Positions 554 to 49,361 of a stretch of 64,000 bases of DNA are shown one piece after another; position 1 is the stretch's first letter, and every line of letters starts with the position of its first letter. The stretch spans positions 131,882 to 195,881 of the forward strand of contig JAFLCD010000002.1 in assembly GCA_017302715.1 (NCBI GenBank), written 5' to 3'. The notes beneath the pieces are model-generated. The model was given only the letters and a program-made list of their open reading frames with translations, made no database searches and had not been told where the DNA came from. A program made the position numbers and the translations under genes. This DNA comes from Deltaproteobacteria bacterium (GTDB taxonomy: Bacteria; Bdellovibrionota; UBA2394).

Positions 554-1549
554 TCAAGTTCCTTTAGCCTTGGCCTTCTGGGCTGCCAACTGGGCTTTCA
601 GGTTTCTGAGTCCAATCGCTGTATCCATCGCCATCGCTGTAATTTCAAAAAGTTTTGAATTCGGCTCTTTTAGCGAGGCAGTTTTTTCGAATCGCTCATT
701 ACAGAATGTTTTGTATTTTACGTGGCCACCAAATTTGAGAGCCCATTCAGTTTGAGACATCGCGCTTTTTACTTCGGCGATTTCTGCCTTCGCTAGAGCG
801 ATGGGATCGAGATATTCCTTTTTATATTTCTCTCGCGCTTTTGATGCTTCGACAATGTCTTTGATCTTTCCGACGGCCTCTTGAATTTGAGCTTCACGCT
901 TCGACTGAAGTTCCGCATATGCCGCCAATACTGCGGGCTCAGCTTCTTTAAAAATCGACGAAGCTTGTTCGATGGCACGAATGGTTTCGACCGTGGTGAA
1001 TGTGCGAACAAATCCTGATGACACAGGTTTTGGAACGCTGACTCGAACACAGTCTTTATTTTCTTCCCAATCGTCGGGGTAACCTTCGATTGTATGCCAC
1101 GCACCCTGGAAGGCTTGACGCGGCCACATTCTTACAGTGACTTTTGACGTTCGCGTGCGAATGGGGCAATTGGCGTGGGATCGACCCATGAAAGATCCGA
1201 TGCCCTTATAGGTGCCCGACTCTTTGTCGAAGCGCAAATTGACGACACTAAAAACGACCTCGCCCTTTTTCATTTTTCCGTTATTTCCTGTGGCATTGAG
1301 AGTGAGAGTCGCACTCGTAGCAAAGCCGACGGAAACATCGCCCCACATGACGCCCTCTTTAGCTTTGCCGAGTCCGATCGTAAAATTATCTGGATTCGAA
1401 AAATGCGGACTTGTCGACGCCCATGATCGACCGTCAAGCAAGGTGTCGGCTGCTTTCAAATCATATGAAAGCGGGGCTTTGAGTAAGTCTTTTACTTCGC
1501 CGGGTTGAGTAGCGAGGATTAATAAAATGGCTAGGTTTTGGAATATCAT
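554..1549 (-). CDS. exported coiled-coil protein of unknown function
   Basis: Protein of 331 residues that I cannot assign to a family. The N-terminus has a short hydrophobic stretch (about residues 2-14) that could be a weak signal peptide. Residues 30-170 look beta-rich with several Gly/Thr runs. Residues about 195-265 are Ala/Glu/Lys-rich and should form a long coiled coil. The start at 1549 is supported by AGGGAG five bases upstream. A weak sigma-54-like element sits 58-73 bases upstream. It converges on the frameshifted lectin-like gene with a 15-base gap and diverges from the J-like gene. Confidence 0.6.
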   Translation of the reverse strand: MIFQNLAILLILATQPGEVKDLLKAPLSYDLKAADTLLDGRSWASTSPHFSNPDNFTIGLGKAKEGVMWGDVSVGFATSATLTLNATGNNGKMKKGEVVFSVVNLRFDKESGTYKGIGSFMGRSHANCPIRTRTSKVTVRMWPRQAFQGAWHTIEGYPDDWEENKDCVRVSVPKPVSSGFVRTFTTVETIRAIEQASSIFKEAEPAVLAAYAELQSKREAQIQEAVGKIKDIVEASKAREKYKKEYLDPIALAKAEIAEVKSAMSQTEWALKFGGHVKYKTFCNERFEKTASLKEPNSKLFEITAMAMDTAIGLRNLKAQLAAQKAKAKGT

Positions 1550-25365: not shown

Positions 25366-25553
25366 GAAAAAAAACTGCTCCCACCTGTACCGTTAGAAGT
25401 CTTTATTTGAACCCAGCAATTGCTAGGTGGGACCCATGTAAATCGCTTTAGGCACAATCCTAAGATTGCGCACACCACATTCAGGGATAGGCCCCCAAGT
25501 TACGTTATAGGTTAAATAAACGCACCTTCCTCACGAATACCGCAGGAGCAGTT
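25366..25553 (-). ncRNA. ssrS: 6S RNA
   Basis: Between zapA and fthC on the minus strand lies a 181-base segment whose ends pair perfectly (AACTGCTCC at the 5' end with GGAGCAGTT at the 3' end) and which is followed by eight T. The 5' part carries TGCGGTATTCGTGAGG, typical of the 6S closing stem. Internal hairpins include GCGCAATC-TTAG-GATTGTGC. Size, shape and the zapA-ssrS-fthC synteny all fit 6S RNA, which binds sigma-70 RNA polymerase in stationary phase. Confidence 0.87.
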
Positions 25554-42420: not shown

Positions 42421-45400
42421 TTATTTTCCGGTTCCTGAAATTTTTCCAAGCACACGGCGAATCCAAAGTCTAAAATCATCGATGGTGGAGAACGCAGCCG
42501 GAATCACAACCAAAGTTAACAAAGTAGAGCTAATGAGTCCGCCGATGATCGCGATACCCATGCTAGTTCTCTGACGAGAAGCTTCGTTAAGTCCAATCGC
42601 GACAGGAAGCATACCTGCGATCAGTGCAACGGTGGTCATCAAGATCGGACGAAGCCGAGTGCGTCCGGCCGTAACGAGTGCCGTCATTCGATCTTTTCCT
42701 TCGCCGATCATTTGGTTTGCGTAATCGACGAGTAAGATGGAATTTTTTGTGGCGACCCCAAGAAGCATAATACATCCGATCATCGAAAAAATATTGAGCG
42801 ATTTGCCCATCACAAAAAGTGCGTAGAACGCACCACAAGCGGCAAGCGGAATCACAAGCATGATCGTAAACGGAGTGATGAAAGATTCGTAGAGACTTGC
42901 GAGCACAAGATAAATAAATAAAATCGCAAGAGCCGCAGCGATCAGCATGCTCTCCATTAGATTTTTAAAATCTTCGGCTTGTCCGATGAATTCATATTTT
43001 ACGCCTTCAGGAAGTTTTAAATCTCCAGATGCAAACATTTCTTGAACATCTTGCATCGCTCGCCCCATTCCTGGGCCATCGGCCGAGATATCGGCAGAAA
43101 TTTGTACGTAACGTCCGCGATCTTGTCGGTTGATATTCGCAGGCCCTTTGGCTTCAACGCCTTCACTTACGTCTGAAAGTTTGACGAGGTAGCCGTTGAT
43201 ATTTGGAATAAAAGTTTGCGAAAAGTTTTGCTGAAGATTTCTTTGATCTTCTTGCAAACGAACGCGCACATCATATTCTTTTCCGCTCTCTCTAAATCTT
43301 GCCGGAGTGATGCCCTCGATCTGAGTACGAAGTTCGGCTCCTAAAATTTCGGAGGAAACTCCAAGTTTTTCAGATTTTTGTTTGTTGAACGCGACCTGAA
43401 ACTCTGGTTTTCCGGGTCGAAAACTGATGTCGACGTCTTTGAGCGCAGGATTTGCTTTTAGTTTTTGCATCGTCGCTACTGCGATTTTTTCAAGCTGATC
43501 TAAGTCGTAGCCCGAGATATTGAGATTGAAAGGGCGTTGTCCTCCAGCGACGAGGTCGATATCTTGCACTCGAGGGTTTGCAAAAGCAAAAGGCTGAAAA
43601 TCTTTTCTTAAAAGGTCTTTAAAATCTGAAGTATTTATTTTTCTTTTCTTAGCCGGCACAAGTTGAACAAAAAATTTGGCTTCGTTTGCAGGGCCTTTTG
43701 CAGAGCCTACGGTGAGAACGGTGCGTTCGACTTCGGGATATTTTTTTGTGATGGCTTCAAGTTGTTTGGCGACTTCTTCAGTGGCATCTAAATTTTTTCC
43801 TGGAGGAAGATCGAGGCGAACTTCAAATTCTCCGAAATCTTGTGGCGGCAAGAAAGTTTTAGGAACAAATTTCAAAATGAATCCGCTGCCTAAAACAATG
43901 ACGACGACACAGCCCAAAATGATGACAGGGTTTTTAATCGAAAATCTTAAAACAGTTTCGTAGTGGTGCTCTAAAAATTTTTGAAAGTTATCGACAGCGG
44001 TGATTGCTCTTCCAATCGTTAAATCCCAGAGGGATTTTTTTGCTTTGGGATCTTTGTGGGTGGGTGTTGCAAGATAAGCTGAGAGCATCGGAGCCATCGT
44101 AAGGGCATCGATCAAACTGATGATCATGGCAAAACAGATTGTTAGCCCAAACTCTCTAAAAAATTGACCGACAATTCCGCTTAAAAAAGAAACCGGCCCA
44201 AAGACTGCGAGTACAGTAGCCGTCGTCGCGATAACAGCGAGAGTGACTTCGGATGTTCCAACCAGAGCTGCTTGCCGAGGAGGCAAGCCTAGTTCGATAT
44301 GCCTAAAAATATTTTCACGAACCACGATGGCGTCGTCGATCAAAAGTCCAACCGCTAAGCTGAGCGCCAAGAGAGTCATAATGTTGATCGTAAATCCTGC
44401 AAAGTACATCAGGATGAATGCTCCAAGCAGAGAGTTCGGAAGCGCAAGTCCCGTAATAAAAGTAGAGCGCAAATTTCCTAAGAAAAATAAAACGACCACA
44501 AGTGTAAGAATGATTCCAAGCAAAATGGATTCTTCGACATCGTCGACGTTATTTTGAATAAACTTCGAAGTATCGTAGACGAGCCCGATATGAGCCTTGT
44601 TCGGATTGGATTGATATTCTTGATTCAAAGCCGCCATTTTTTTCTTAATTTCTTTGGCGACGGCAATCGTGTTCGCTCCTGATTGACGATAGACGTTAAT
44701 AAACAAGGCTTTCGATCCGTTGACGAAGGCTCGAGATTTTTCGTCTTGAAGTCCATCGACCACTTTGCCGACGTCTTTAACGGTCACAGGAACATCATTG
44801 CCAAAAAAATTGACGATGACGTTTTCGATATCTTTAGGAGATTGAAATTCTCCGAGACTTCGAAAACTCATTTCAGATTTTTGAGAGTCGATTTTTCCGA
44901 TGGGAATATTTTGTCCTGCAGATCCGATTCTCTGAGCGACCATATTGGCTGAGACTTCGTAAGCTTTAAGTTTTTTTCGATCGAGCTCAGCGCGAATTTC
45001 TCTTTTCCTTCCGCCTTCAATTTCAACCAATCCGACCTGATTGATCTGCTCGAACTTAGGTTTTAAAATTTCATTGGCGAGATCGTAGAGCTGACCTTCA
45101 GGTAAATTTGCCGTCAGTGCTAAAATCACAATCGGTTGATCGGCGGGATCGATCCTACGAATCACGGGCTCATCGATATCCTTTGGTAATTTGGATCGTG
45201 CAGAAGAAACACGATCGCGAATCTGTTGTTCTGCATCTCGAATAGGAGTTTCGAGTGTGAACTCAGCGACGACTTGGCTTAAGCCCTCTCGATTGATCGA
45301 GCGAACGGTTTTGATTCCAGCGACCGTGCTGATTTCTTCTTCGAGAGGTTTTGAAATTAAAGTTTCAATTTCATTGGGACTTGCTCCGGGATAAACCGTC

Positions 45401-45543
45401 TGAATAAAAACGACGGGAAAACTTACGTTCGGAAATAAATCGACGCCAAGTTTTAAGAGTGAAAGCCCGCCGATCGCAAGCATCAAGATGAATGCGCAGG
45501 TGATAAAAATCGGGCGCTTGATAGATAGTTCAGGTAAATTCAT
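42421..45543 (-). CDS. RND efflux transporter, HAE1 (AcrB-like)
   Basis: Protein of 1040 residues with twelve membrane helices and two large periplasmic loops. The proton-relay Asp pair is seen in LLIDDAIVVREN (near 402) and the Lys in ATKNSILLVDYAN (near 933). It exports hydrophobic compounds through a TolC-like duct using proton force. It overlaps the TolC-like gene by four bases. No membrane fusion protein gene is present in this operon, which is unusual for an AcrB-type pump. Confidence 0.92.
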   Translation of the reverse strand: MNLPELSIKRPIFITCAFILMLAIGGLSLLKLGVDLFPNVSFPVVFIQTVYPGASPNEIETLISKPLEEEISTVAGIKTVRSINREGLSQVVAEFTLETPIRDAEQQIRDRVSSARSKLPKDIDEPVIRRIDPADQPIVILALTANLPEGQLYDLANEILKPKFEQINQVGLVEIEGGRKREIRAELDRKKLKAYEVSANMVAQRIGSAGQNIPIGKIDSQKSEMSFRSLGEFQSPKDIENVIVNFFGNDVPVTVKDVGKVVDGLQDEKSRAFVNGSKALFINVYRQSGANTIAVAKEIKKKMAALNQEYQSNPNKAHIGLVYDTSKFIQNNVDDVEESILLGIILTLVVVLFFLGNLRSTFITGLALPNSLLGAFILMYFAGFTINIMTLLALSLAVGLLIDDAIVVRENIFRHIELGLPPRQAALVGTSEVTLAVIATTATVLAVFGPVSFLSGIVGQFFREFGLTICFAMIISLIDALTMAPMLSAYLATPTHKDPKAKKSLWDLTIGRAITAVDNFQKFLEHHYETVLRFSIKNPVIILGCVVVIVLGSGFILKFVPKTFLPPQDFGEFEVRLDLPPGKNLDATEEVAKQLEAITKKYPEVERTVLTVGSAKGPANEAKFFVQLVPAKKRKINTSDFKDLLRKDFQPFAFANPRVQDIDLVAGGQRPFNLNISGYDLDQLEKIAVATMQKLKANPALKDVDISFRPGKPEFQVAFNKQKSEKLGVSSEILGAELRTQIEGITPARFRESGKEYDVRVRLQEDQRNLQQNFSQTFIPNINGYLVKLSDVSEGVEAKGPANINRQDRGRYVQISADISADGPGMGRAMQDVQEMFASGDLKLPEGVKYEFIGQAEDFKNLMESMLIAAALAILFIYLVLASLYESFITPFTIMLVIPLAACGAFYALFVMGKSLNIFSMIGCIMLLGVATKNSILLVDYANQMIGEGKDRMTALVTAGRTRLRPILMTTVALIAGMLPVAIGLNEASRQRTSMGIAIIGGLISSTLLTLVVIPAAFSTIDDFRLWIRRVLGKISGTGK

Positions 45544-46988
45544 GGGTTCACTTCTCCTTGAGTGCTGGCAGAACTAAAATTTGAAAATGTTTTAAGCTGT
45601 GCGTAAGTCGTCAATAAATCGAATTCAGTTTTTGCAAGATTGAGGCTCGCGAATTCATAATCCTGTTCAAAAACTAAAACTTGATAGGTGGTAGAGCGTC
45701 CTCGATGAAGTCGCTCTTGCTCATAGACAGATTTTTCTCTCTGCGCACTTTCAAGTTCTCGGGCGATGGTGAGTTGCTTTTTTAATTCTACAAATTTTTC
45801 AGAAAGATCTCTCCACTCCTGCTCTTGTTCAAAAAACTTTCTTTGATAATCGAGCTCTGCCGCTTTTCTTTCTTTATGAGCGCCCGCTCGAATATCTTTT
45901 TGCGCCCAAAAATCGAGAGGAAGAACCAAATTTACTCCGACAGCATACGTATTGTGATTGGTTTTAAAAGATTGGCTAAAGGCTTCGTCCATTTCGGAAT
46001 TTCGAGAGTGAAGCTCAATCGATCCTGTCGCATCGAGAGAGGGGCGAGATTTGTTTAAGGTTTGATCTGCTTGAGCCGTTTGAGATCGCTTGCGCTGTTC
46101 GGCAGCGAGCAGATCTTCTCTTCGAGATGCGCGCACAGGAATTTGAAGAGAAGAAAGTGCTTCTCCATTTAGACCGGAGAGCTTTTCTTTTACTTCGGAA
46201 CTTTCAACTCCTCGAAAGGTATTGAAACTCAAAGCGGCAGCACGCTGTTCATCTTGAGCTTGCTGAGTTTCAAATTGGCGTGTTCGGTAGGCGGCATCAC
46301 CTTGTAAAAAATCGGAGCGATCGGCCAAATGATTATCCATTCGATTCTTGCTCCAGGTTCTGATTTTTTTAGCTCTCTCCAAAGTTTGCTCACGAATGGT
46401 AAGAATGCGAGTAGAAATAAAATATTTCCAATAAGTCGCTTCAGCCGCTGCCAAAATTTGTTTCAGCTTAAATTGCTCTATAAAACTTAGTTCTAAAAAT
46501 TGAGCTTCGGCGGCTCTGACCATCGCGCGAGTTTCAGAGCCGAAGAAATTTTTCCAAAGCGATTGAGAAACTTCAATGGTCGGAGAAGCATCGTAATATT
46601 TAGGTTGAGAAATCAAACTCGGACTTGTTCCTTCAAGTGTCGTGTGACTGAGTTCGTAAGTAACCTTGGCTTGAGTTCCAGTTGAAAATAATTTTGAAAG
46701 CCCGAGTGTGTTTGCAAAAACTTTTGTCTTTGAACCCATCGAGGCTGGATTAAGAGTGGGGCGGCCGTCGTTATACCACTGTGATTTTGCCAAAAGCTGC
46801 GGTGAAAGCATAAATCTGCCGAGCTTTGATTCTTGAAACGCGGCTTTGGCTCGCATCTCTGAAGCTGCAAATCCAAGATGAGAGGTTCTTACTTGTTCTA
46901 GATAGTCTACGAGTGAAAGATTTGTTTTCTCTGCGGCGAATGCGGAAAAAGAAAATGTAAAGCTTAAGGTAAAAATAAAAAATTTCAT
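45540..46988 (-). CDS. TolC-like outer membrane efflux protein
   Basis: Protein of 482 residues with a signal peptide ending in AFAAE and two long-helix repeats (about residues 150-270 and 370-460), the outer membrane efflux protein (OEP) pattern. It would form the trimeric outer-membrane channel for the RND pump downstream. It overlaps the TetR gene by four bases and the pump gene by four bases, so all three are translated together. Confidence 0.82.
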   Translation of the reverse strand: MKFFIFTLSFTFSFSAFAAEKTNLSLVDYLEQVRTSHLGFAASEMRAKAAFQESKLGRFMLSPQLLAKSQWYNDGRPTLNPASMGSKTKVFANTLGLSKLFSTGTQAKVTYELSHTTLEGTSPSLISQPKYYDASPTIEVSQSLWKNFFGSETRAMVRAAEAQFLELSFIEQFKLKQILAAAEATYWKYFISTRILTIREQTLERAKKIRTWSKNRMDNHLADRSDFLQGDAAYRTRQFETQQAQDEQRAAALSFNTFRGVESSEVKEKLSGLNGEALSSLQIPVRASRREDLLAAEQRKRSQTAQADQTLNKSRPSLDATGSIELHSRNSEMDEAFSQSFKTNHNTYAVGVNLVLPLDFWAQKDIRAGAHKERKAAELDYQRKFFEQEQEWRDLSEKFVELKKQLTIARELESAQREKSVYEQERLHRGRSTTYQVLVFEQDYEFASLNLAKTEFDLLTTYAQLKTFSNFSSASTQGEVNP

Positions 46989-47626
46989 TTTTTACATCCT
47001 TCAAAAAAGTTTTGTAGAAGTTGTTGAGTGACGAGGGTTCGATAATTTTTGTCCGAAATGCTTTTATCGAAATACTTTTTCGTTGTCGGATCGTTGCGAA
47101 TCAAATGCATCAGCGATCCAAAGAAAAGTTGTGCTGAGATAAAGGGATCTAAGTCGGCGCGCAAAAACCCGTTGGCTTGCGCCTGTTTTAAAAATTCGAG
47201 CAGGGTTTCAAAAACTTTAAGAAAAGTTTGTTTAAAAATATCGGGAGCGATCGTAAATGCATTTTCACATTCGCGATGAACGATTTTGGGAAGATAAGGC
47301 TCTTCAATATGAAAATTAAAAATCTCTTCGACGAACATCTCGAGGCGAACTCGCACTTCATCAAAAGTTTCTGGAGATTTAAAAAGTCTTTGAGTTGCTT
47401 CAAGGCGCTTTTGACCAAATTCACTGAGAACAGTTCGAAACAGTCCTTCTTTCCCATCGAAGTAGTAGCTAACGAGGCTGAGGTTTACACCGGCTTCATC
47501 CGCTAGCTCGCGAACGGTAGTTCCATCGAGGCCTTTTTCAGCAAAAAGCTTTTTAGCGGCTTCTAGGAGCAGCCTCTTCGACTTGTCCGAAGCTTCTGGG
47601 CTTTGCTCTAATTCTGATTTCCCCAT
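46985..47626 (-). CDS. TetR-family transcriptional regulator
   Basis: Protein of 213 residues. Residues about 20-65 form the TetR helix-turn-helix (GTTVRELADEAGVNLSLVSYY), and the rest is an all-helical ligand-binding domain with the FGSLMHLIRNDP segment. It heads the efflux operon and probably represses it, with a pump substrate as inducer. Two identical palindromes at 47680-47717 in the promoter region are its likely operators. Confidence 0.9.
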   Translation of the reverse strand: MGKSELEQSPEASDKSKRLLLEAAKKLFAEKGLDGTTVRELADEAGVNLSLVSYYFDGKEGLFRTVLSEFGQKRLEATQRLFKSPETFDEVRVRLEMFVEEIFNFHIEEPYLPKIVHRECENAFTIAPDIFKQTFLKVFETLLEFLKQAQANGFLRADLDPFISAQLFFGSLMHLIRNDPTTKKYFDKSISDKNYRTLVTQQLLQNFFEGCKK

Positions 47627-47679
47627 CCCTTTTTTATAATAAACTTTTATTTGAAAAAATAAAACAAACGTTTAAATGC

Positions 47680-47717
47680 GTAAAAATTACCTATTTTGCG
47701 TACCGTGTAAAAATTAC
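47680..47717 (-). promoter_or_regulatory. two GTAAAAATTAC palindromes, likely TetR operators
   Basis: The 11-base palindrome GTAA-AAA-TTAC occurs twice, at 47680-47690 and 47707-47717, 27 bases centre to centre. They lie 54-91 bases upstream of the TetR start, in an AT-rich promoter region. Their identity and position fit operators for the adjacent regulator; a spacing near 2.5 helical turns would let two dimers bind on different faces. Confidence 0.55.
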
Positions 47718-47720
47718 ATT

Positions 47721-47986
47721 GACTCAAAATGTCGATTCTGTGAGTCTGGATTCATAGGGTTAGAACTAGATCCGGGATGAACAAGGGTTATAGGGGTTCA
47801 AAGGGGGGTCTAGTTCGAAAAGTACACAGGGGAGTTTAAGAGTGACTTGAGGGGGTAACTTTTAAACACCAAGCCACGAAGGGGTGGCAAAAAACAGGGT
47901 TCCAGTGGGAACCCAAAGGCATACTGCTCATTCCAAATTAAGGAAAAGGCCGAGATCCCGAGGGGAGATCTCGGCCTTGTTTTTTT
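47721..47986 (+). ncRNA. candidate structured RNA with six hairpins
   Basis: This segment has no open frame but six perfect or near-perfect stems in order: GACTCA/TGAGTC (47721/47741), GAACTAGA/TCTAGTTC (47763/47809, enclosing TGAAC/GTTCA), GTTTAAGAGT/ACTTTTAAAC (47834/47858, one G-U), GCCAC/GTGGC (47873/47884), GGGTTCC/GGAACCC (47897/47908), and a 12-bp terminator stem (47946/47967) followed by seven T. The strand is inferred from the T run and G-rich loops. I see no clear promoter. It matches no RNA family I know. Confidence 0.45.
47946..47986 (+). terminator. strong bidirectional terminator
   Basis: A perfect 12-bp stem (AAGGCCGAGATC / GATCTCGGCCTT) with a nine-base loop is followed on the plus strand by GTTTTTTT and on the minus strand by TTTTCC. 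On the minus strand it serves the M16 gene ending at 47991; on the plus strand it could end the candidate RNA. Confidence 0.85.
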
Positions 47987-47990
47987 GTGC

Positions 47991-49361
47991 CTAAGGTTTC
48001 TTAGATTTCTTCATCTGTTTCGCTGCTTTTCCTGAAGCGCCACCAGCTTTTGTTTTTTCTGCAGAATGACCAGAGATGTTCGAAGCTAAATCAATTTTTT
48101 CAGGGCCGACATAGGCCACAGTGAAATCTTTAAAATATTTTTTCGAGACTTCTATAATTTTTTCTGGAGTTACGGTGTTTAGACGATCGATAAAAGCATT
48201 CGAATCTTTCCAACCTGTTCCAATCATTTCGTAGAGAGAAAAAATTCTCGCTTGAGAAGATCCCGTTTCCCTTCCCAAATACCAAGACGAAGTAAATTTT
48301 CTCACTTGAAGCTCAATAGTTTTCTTGTCGATAGGTTGAGATTGGATTTTTCTGACTTCATCAAAAATCACGTGAACAGCTTCGGGCAATTGAGTCGACG
48401 TTACATACAAATAGCCCGAGTTCACGGCTGAATTTCCCATACTGCAATGAACGGAGTACGTGAGACCTCGCTTCGTTCTCACTTCCTCAAAAAGTCGGTT
48501 GTCTAAAATCTGACAAGCGAGAGCAAGCGCAGGATAGTCGGCATCTTTTAATGCTGGAGCTTTAAATCTCGCGATGAAATAAGTCGTGGGAGAATCAAAT
48601 TTTTTATAAATAATTTCTTTTGTCTCGTTTTTTGGTTGCTCAGAAATAATGCTGCCGCGTTCTCCCGAAGGCAGATCTCCAAAAAACTTTTGAATCATCG
48701 AGGTGGTTTCTTGAGCGTTTAAATCTCCCACCACAATGAAGAATACATTTTTTGAATTGAAAATTTTCGGAAGCGTGGCTTTTAAATCCTCGCGAGTAAT
48801 TTCCGGAACCGTGTTCAAATATCCCGACGTGCGTTTTGAATAGGGGTGGCTTTTATAAAATGCATCGCCACTCACAAGTTGCAAAATCGAATCAGGGTGA
48901 TCTTCTTCGTTTCTTAAATCAGAGAGCAATTGATTTCTCGAAAGCTCAATTTCCTCAGCCTTGAGATCGGGAGTGCGAATCATTTCGGAAATAATCGGAA
49001 GAAGTTTTGGCAAAAATCTTTTCAAGCACTTTAAAGAAACTTCAATATAATCATTTTTCGCTTCGATACTAAAAATCGCGCCACTCTCTGCAAAAATCTG
49101 ATCGATTTGTTCTTTCGAGTAAGTGGGGGTTCCAGAGTGCATAGTTTTTAAAAGCATTTCGATAACGCCGGCTTTGTTTTGTAAATTTACCGAGCCTTTA
49201 GTGGAAATCTGAAACGCCACAATTTCACCATCGTCTTTGGTTGAGCGTAAAATGCCGGGCATTCCGGCAGCAGTGAAAGTTTGCATATCTTTAAGGTCTA
49301 AGGCCTTTGTCATGGGTGAAGCTCCTAAGCTAAAAATAAAAATTAAAAAAAATTTCTTCAT
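47991..49361 (-). CDS. M16-family protein lacking the zinc site
   Basis: Protein of 456 residues with a signal peptide (about 1-20). The body follows the M16 peptidase fold, with the middle helix pattern AEEIELSRNQLLSDLRN and later VVGDLNAQETTSMIQKFFGDL. The HxxEH zinc motif is missing where it should occur after residue 60, so it is the non-catalytic partner. Its start overlaps the stop of the catalytic M16 gene by four bases, indicating a heterodimer as in mitochondrial processing peptidase. The C-terminus ends in a Lys/Ala-rich tail. Confidence 0.82.
   Translation of the reverse strand: MKKFFLIFIFSLGASPMTKALDLKDMQTFTAAGMPGILRSTKDDGEIVAFQISTKGSVNLQNKAGVIEMLLKTMHSGTPTYSKEQIDQIFAESGAIFSIEAKNDYIEVSLKCLKRFLPKLLPIISEMIRTPDLKAEEIELSRNQLLSDLRNEEDHPDSILQLVSGDAFYKSHPYSKRTSGYLNTVPEITREDLKATLPKIFNSKNVFFIVVGDLNAQETTSMIQKFFGDLPSGERGSIISEQPKNETKEIIYKKFDSPTTYFIARFKAPALKDADYPALALACQILDNRLFEEVRTKRGLTYSVHCSMGNSAVNSGYLYVTSTQLPEAVHVIFDEVRKIQSQPIDKKTIELQVRKFTSSWYLGRETGSSQARIFSLYEMIGTGWKDSNAFIDRLNTVTPEKIIEVSKKYFKDFTVAYVGPEKIDLASNISGHSAEKTKAGGASGKAAKQMKKSKKP

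Follow-up and report, generated by a model that had tools for sequence, protein, structure and literature searches.

Introduction

RosA of Bacillus subtilis, a sponge of ~229 nt with G-rich regions for the C-rich sRNAs RoxS (RsaE) and FsrA, demonstrates that G-rich sponges of C-rich sRNAs do exist (PMC8216469). In Vibrio cholerae, the sRNAs Qrr1-4 are driven by the NtrC-type regulator LuxO from sigma54 promoters with sites ~100 bp upstream, and are counteracted by a sponge, QrrX, which has an activator of its own, the LysR-type protein QrrT (PMC9732341, PMC11407668). In both systems, sponge and sRNA are placed under different regulators (PMC8216469, PMC9732341), and a short search of the open-access literature found no described sRNA and sponge under one operator. 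The NfeR1/alpha-r14 RNAs, restricted to Alphaproteobacteria, display C-rich anti-Shine-Dalgarno loops (CCUCCUCCC) on differing stems, carry three short motifs and are linked to an NtrBC-type system through repression by NtrC; the NfeR1 paper describes no sponge (PMC10746234). Regarding the regulators themselves, NtrC-type proteins without GAFTGA, the sigma54-contact motif, act at sigma70 promoters, as in Caulobacter and Rhodobacter, where the targets belong to nitrogen assimilation (PMC10274813). In Escherichia coli, the NtrC-type system QseE/QseF drives the expression of a decoy small RNA, GlmY, through a sigma54 promoter; GlmY titrates the protein RapZ and has no complementary partner RNA (PMC6075780, PMC7073468).

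In this work, we analysed an intergenic gap in a 64-kb window (the whole stretch of DNA under analysis) together with its counterparts in related genomes. The genome holding the window (G000) and four relatives (G001-G004), all Bdellovibrionota MAGs, represent one GTDB family, with one genus each. Two RNAs are described, one with G-rich loops (G-RNA) and one with a C-rich loop (C-RNA), and in our best reading they would work most like RosA/RoxS, the likeness being an RNA of ~230 nt with several G-rich regions set against C-rich sRNA regions that target ribosome-binding sites (PMC8216469). Unlike RosA and RoxS, which depend on CcpA and Rex, respectively (PMC8216469), G-RNA and C-RNA have the same operator; C-RNA also differs from RoxS in consisting of one hairpin topped by one long loop, and neither RNA has a sequence or Rfam relation to that pair. 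With QrrX/Qrr1-4 the locus shares the type of its probable regulator, the promoter type in part of the family, the upstream position of the sites and, in this reading, a sponge opposing the sRNA, although the sequences are unrelated and QrrX has its own activator. The C-rich loop on changing stems recalls NfeR1, and the loss of GAFTGA recalls Caulobacter and Rhodobacter, except that here the loss tracks the type of promoter at an adjoining sRNA gene. We lean, if modestly, towards a circuit in which G-RNA is a sponge for C-RNA and one NtrC-type regulator drives both from a common operator. Two unannotated RNA families of a little-known Bdellovibrionota family would then appear to match each other as partners that share a control site, and a common regulator, unlike the arrangement in RosA/RoxS and QrrX/Qrr, would give a compact and testable circuit.

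A predicted small-RNA gene in the intergenic gap

By crude gene calls, the gap at 47627-47990 (364 bp) is the sole one >300 bp in the window, as the initial annotation had stated, and no ORF >36 aa overlaps the segment 47721-47988, which had likewise been described as free of open frames. The separate stems and the terminator that were placed within 266 bases are present: the minimum free energy of 47721-47988 is -104.2 kcal/mol (z = -7.6), a value that none of 200 dinucleotide-shuffled versions attained (-71.0 +/- 4.4 kcal/mol), and the interval 47754-47987 reaches z = -7.9. The minus strand of the segment folds almost equally well (z = -7.1), and therefore folding gives no strand; the plus strand, proposed from the G-rich loops and the T run, is assigned on these two features together with a conserved putative promoter. 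The -35 hexamer and a 17-bp spacer place the start near 47754 (Table 1), so that the first of the annotated stems (~47734-47761) would lie mostly in the promoter. Sequence comparison points to a conserved and probably stand-alone small-RNA gene in the gap, G-RNA, probably transcribed from ~47754 to 47987 on the plus strand, and the earlier proposal of a new structured small RNA ending near 47986 is retained as the best reading.

No Rfam covariance model reached its gathering threshold at the G-RNA or C-RNA loci, permissive matches being far below it; RF01820 (RsaE/RoxS) gave 22.1 bits, vs a threshold of 79, on the reverse strand of the C-RNA locus sequence of G000. Matches at threshold in the window were one tRNA and one 6S RNA (RF00013, 72.8 bits; 25374-25551, minus strand), both away from the gap. 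The genes flanking the gap are listed in Table 1. TetR, TolC-type and AcrB-type genes stand in a row on the minus strand (42421-47626) as an efflux operon divergent from G-RNA, and the TolC-type gene still adjoins G-RNA in two relatives.

Table 1. Features of the G-RNA locus in the window, and location of C-RNA in the same genome.
Feature	Position	Strand	Remarks
TetR-family gene	46985..47626	-	Divergent neighbour; Pfam TetR_N 7.6e-16
Operator-like palindrome 1, GCGTAAAAATTACCT	47678..47692	.	Second-best operator-matrix site of the 64-kb window; tandem copy in five of five genomes
Operator-like palindrome 2, GTGTAAAAATTACAT, abutting the -35	47705..47719	.	Top-scoring site of the window; TTGAC begins 7 bp past its centre in five of five genomes
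Putative -35 hexamer, TTGACT	47719..47724	+	TTGAC directly after the palindrome in all five genomes
Putative weak -10 hexamer, GAGTCT, 17-bp spacer	47742..47747	+	Predicted; same register in relatives
G-RNA	47754..47987	+	Start predicted from promoter spacing; terminator with T run; five syntenic/promoter-matched homologues
Hairpin 1, large loop with AAGGGUUAUAGGGG	47763..47817	+	MFE and centroid structure
Hairpin 2, loop region with UUGAGGGGGU	47834..47867	+	MFE and centroid structure
Hairpin 3, GCCAC-GAAGGG-GUGGC	47873..47888	+	MFE and centroid structure
Hairpin 4, NGUG tetraloop, GGGUUCC-AGUG-GGAACCC	47897..47914	+	Tetraloop in five of five genomes; covarying stem
Terminator hairpin, AGGGG loop	47948..47976	+	Followed by TTGTTTTTTT; AGGGG in the terminator loop in five of five genomes
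Terminator T run (TTGTTTTTTTG)	47977..47987	+	Directly 3' of the terminator hairpin
M16 peptidase gene	47991..49361	-	Convergent neighbour; Pfam Peptidase_M16_C 4.3e-30
C-RNA of G000	L106 (contig C1), ~1200-1500	-	Also at loci L104, L087, L108 and L096

Conservation of the G-RNA across the family

BLASTN with the whole segment against the relatives returned a single weak match, in the promoter region, and synteny was consequently required for finding homologues; the M16 peptidase used as a single-protein query in a contig scan gave no match. On the basis of synteny and promoter pattern, G-RNA was recognized in each of the five family genomes, with no further occurrence in the searched sample of the phylum. 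The M16 gene adjoins it in G000, G001, G002 and G004: the locus lies between this gene and the TolC-type gene in G001 and G002; in G004, it is flanked by guaA and the M16 gene, and in G003 it is near guaA, with two small ORFs between. Of 368 phylum genomes, four carry the promoter pattern (GTAA-N3-TTACATTGAC, 26-38 nt, AGGG), each of them a member of the family, and a relaxed search of G003 revealed its copy, with one mismatch in the operator-TTGAC part. Two pattern matches in viral contigs, located inside a phage tail-type gene, were set aside as chance.

Common to the five genomes are two tandem palindromes of the ATGTAAAAATTACAT type, TTGAC, the NGUG hairpin, the AGGGG terminator loop and the G runs, with 6-11 runs of at least three G per G-RNA and 0-2 runs of C. 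The promoter-like and terminator sequences are conserved throughout: the palindrome centres are 27-33 bp apart, TTGAC begins 7 bp past the second centre, and a 17-bp spacer leads to a putative weak -10 whose second base is A (CAAATT, CAGTTT, CACAGT and CATAAA in the relatives). Stems were compared hairpin by hairpin, two hairpins being comparable across all five genomes, and the outcome favours the reading of the initial annotation, which had named compensatory changes as a check on its stems. In the NGUG hairpin (tetraloops AGUG, CGUG, UGUG, GGUG and UGUG), both-sided changes affect 5 of 6 pairs with all cells paired, and the covariation score was reached by 0 of 500 shuffles; the terminator stems are largely re-coded around their constant AGGGG loop. 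Drawn from five sequences, this covariation evidence is good but not exhaustive.

A probable C-rich partner RNA beside a two-component system

A search for further copies of the palindrome located some in G002 and G004, close to an NtrC-type response-regulator gene. Beside these sites a second unannotated RNA, C-RNA, was recognized, with a predicted length of ~120 nt and consisting of a hairpin with a C-rich loop and then a terminator; it was next found in G001, G003 and G000. C-RNA is present in all five genomes just downstream of the same kinase/NtrC-type response-regulator pair, and a sequence model applied to 357 phylum genomes found it absent from the other 352. Weak matches of this model outside the family (L122-L124), as well as a second match in G004 (L125), were without a comparable hairpin on inspection, and matches of the C-loop pattern in G121, G287 and G045 look like chance. 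The hairpin of G000 reads GAGCGGCA-GAAACCCUUAAAACCCUUUAUCCCUCCCCUU-UGCCGCUC. Across the family, the loop consists of CCC runs over 26-31 nt, shows complementarity with the G runs of G-RNA and is nearly invariant over ~26 nt (ACCCUUAAAACCCUUUAUCCC(C)UCCC). When the natural loops were swapped for one short common spacer to align the stems, both-sided changes were counted in 7 of 8 stem pairs, with 97.5% of cells paired. On the other side of C-RNA, a clostripain-family (C11) protease gene is found in three of the five genomes (L106 2-1201, L087 1-1293 and L104 705-2048).

A shared operator-like site

An operator matrix was built solely from the sites that precede G-RNA in four genomes. Within 350 bp on the upstream side of the C hairpin, its top site scores 15.4-23.4 bits in five of five genomes, such scores being expected ~0.005-0.01 times per 350 bp. 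This site stands 103 nt upstream of the hairpin in G000, 104 in G002, 138 in G003 and 150 in G004, and G001 has a first site at 178 nt and a second (12.4 bits) at 105 nt. Near-exact palindromes elsewhere in the five genomes are few, with 0-3 per genome for reversed-pattern controls. The positions of the sites, ~-42 and -69 at G-RNA and roughly -66 or -118 at C-RNA, relative to predicted promoters, suggest activation. The Bdellovibrio LexA site is TTAC-N3-GTAA; LexA was dismissed as the binder of the palindrome, the half-sites being in opposite order.

Complementarity between the two RNAs

Predicted duplexes between the C loop and G-RNA amount to -23 to -31 kcal/mol in four genomes, no better than with dinucleotide-shuffled G-RNAs, which indicates that composition, namely G-run content, carries most of the pairing; for this reason, counts of exact words were used instead. 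Complements to 6-mers of the own C loop cover 190 nt of the five G-RNAs. Dinucleotide-shuffled G-RNAs give 120 +/- 22 nt (P = 0.0013) and the opposite strand gives 24 nt, with P = 0.056 when the loop is shuffled instead. The loop of hairpin 1 contains words of six and seven bases that are complementary to the C loop, and many complementary words fall in predicted loops or single strands of G-RNA, as accessible seed complements of a sponge would. Pairing between C-RNA and G-RNA is accordingly regarded as plausible and moderately supported by these sequence statistics.

The same G-rich loops could instead bind a protein, with G-RNA and C-RNA as independent products of a common regulator that never pair, in a manner resembling CsrB/CsrA. 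We consider this a fairly unlikely reading: repeated AGGG loops on varying stems, an AGGGG terminator loop in five of five genomes and a constant NGUG tetraloop, unlike the C-loop complement, would suit a protein ligand, but GGA/ANGGA is not enriched, so that the motif is not the known one of CsrA, and a complementary C-RNA with the same operator would be left unexplained. Titration of CsrA itself, of the CsrB/RsmZ type, was rejected, as GGA is not above shuffles in four G-RNAs.

The response regulator and its sigma factor

The neighbour of C-RNA is an NtrC-type response regulator by its receiver, AAA+ sigma54-interaction and Fis-type HTH domains (Pfam Response_reg 2.1e-26, Sigma54_activat 3.5e-70, HTH_8 2.8e-11), with a HisKA kinase as partner. 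Comparison of the response-regulator genes at loci L106, L105, L107, L108 and L109 revealed a sigma54-contact loop that reads GAFTGA in G003 and GSFTGA in G004, and that is degenerate or lost in the remaining genomes: GAFVSA in G000, which departs from the GAFTGA expected of a sigma54-activating bEBP, DVTLGF in G002, and deleted in G001. A -24/-12-type promoter precedes C-RNA in G003 (TTGGCATGAATTTTGCT) and G004 (TTGGCATGACTCTTGCT), and no such elements were seen at C-RNA of G000, G001 and G002. The intact contact loop is therefore found exactly in the two genomes with a sigma54-type C-RNA promoter, and is lost in the other three. This two-versus-three match is the main reason for naming the response regulator as the probable controller of both RNAs, along with its conserved HTH and the conserved sites. 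That it binds TGTAA-N3-TTACA we infer from adjacency, site sharing and the correlation with promoter type (2 vs 3 in five genomes).

Control of two real, pairing RNAs by some other transcription factor, for instance the TetR-family neighbour, is unlikely. In G000, the operators do fall within the stretch from which the TetR gene and G-RNA diverge, and TetR proteins bind palindromes; nevertheless, the four relatives retain the palindromes yet have no such gene at the locus, no homologue is found at E <= 0.001 in G001, G003 and G004, and it is the response-regulator gene that adjoins C-RNA in five of five. The TetR protein as common regulator was set aside for its non-conservation at the locus.

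A proposed sponge circuit

In the circuit that we favour, with sponge and sRNA under the NtrC-type regulator, G-RNA would present AGGG/GGGG runs along a series of hairpins and unpaired segments, and these runs would base-pair with the C-RNA loop and neutralise C-RNA. Free C-RNA would bind mRNAs at G-rich leaders and at Shine-Dalgarno regions and so repress them, and the response regulator would bind TGTAA-N3-TTACA before both genes, probably activating both. One point weighs against this circuit: were a single activator to raise both, the sponge would offset part of the sRNA, and a difference in timing or affinity would be needed.

The complementarity is symmetric and the same operator stands at both genes, so the roles could be reversed, with G-RNA as an effector on C-rich mRNA sites and C-RNA as its sponge or antagonist. 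This direction is quite unlikely, given that the near-invariant ~26 nt of the C loop are as expected of a multi-target seed, whereas G-RNA keeps little beyond its tetraloop, its terminator loop and scattered G runs, as a multi-site decoy would. Moreover, 11 of 52 window genes have a C-loop 6-mer directly ahead of them, vs 3.7 expected at random positions, an excess in keeping with an anti-Shine-Dalgarno RNA and also with plain purine-rich ribosome sites. For these reasons, C-RNA is taken as the probable regulator and G-RNA as its sponge. It is highly improbable that the gap holds no gene at all and is a spacer between TetR and M16 with a bidirectional terminator and hairpins that arose by chance. 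Although terminators are ordinary between converging genes and the minus strand folds well too, all five genera keep the promoter with its tandem palindromes, the tetraloop hairpin and the terminator loop despite changes of neighbours, and the five G-RNAs fold with z from -2.6 to -7.9.

Extending the sponge circuit to the history of the family is more tentative, and we put it somewhat short of an even chance: one two-component system would produce from a single operator both a C-rich regulatory RNA and, devoted to it, a G-rich sponge with multiple sites, in a self-limiting manner, and part of the family would have dropped the regulator's use of sigma54 along with the C-RNA promoter while keeping the circuit. 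The variation of GAFTGA alongside the sigma54-type promoter, with loss in three of five genera, would then constitute a natural case of a sigma-factor swap with the target kept. A weaker palindrome, ATGTCAAAATTACGC (12.2 bits), is located at ~3644 of L106, near a divergent gene upstream of the kinase gene of G000 itself, and would be compatible with possible autoregulation.
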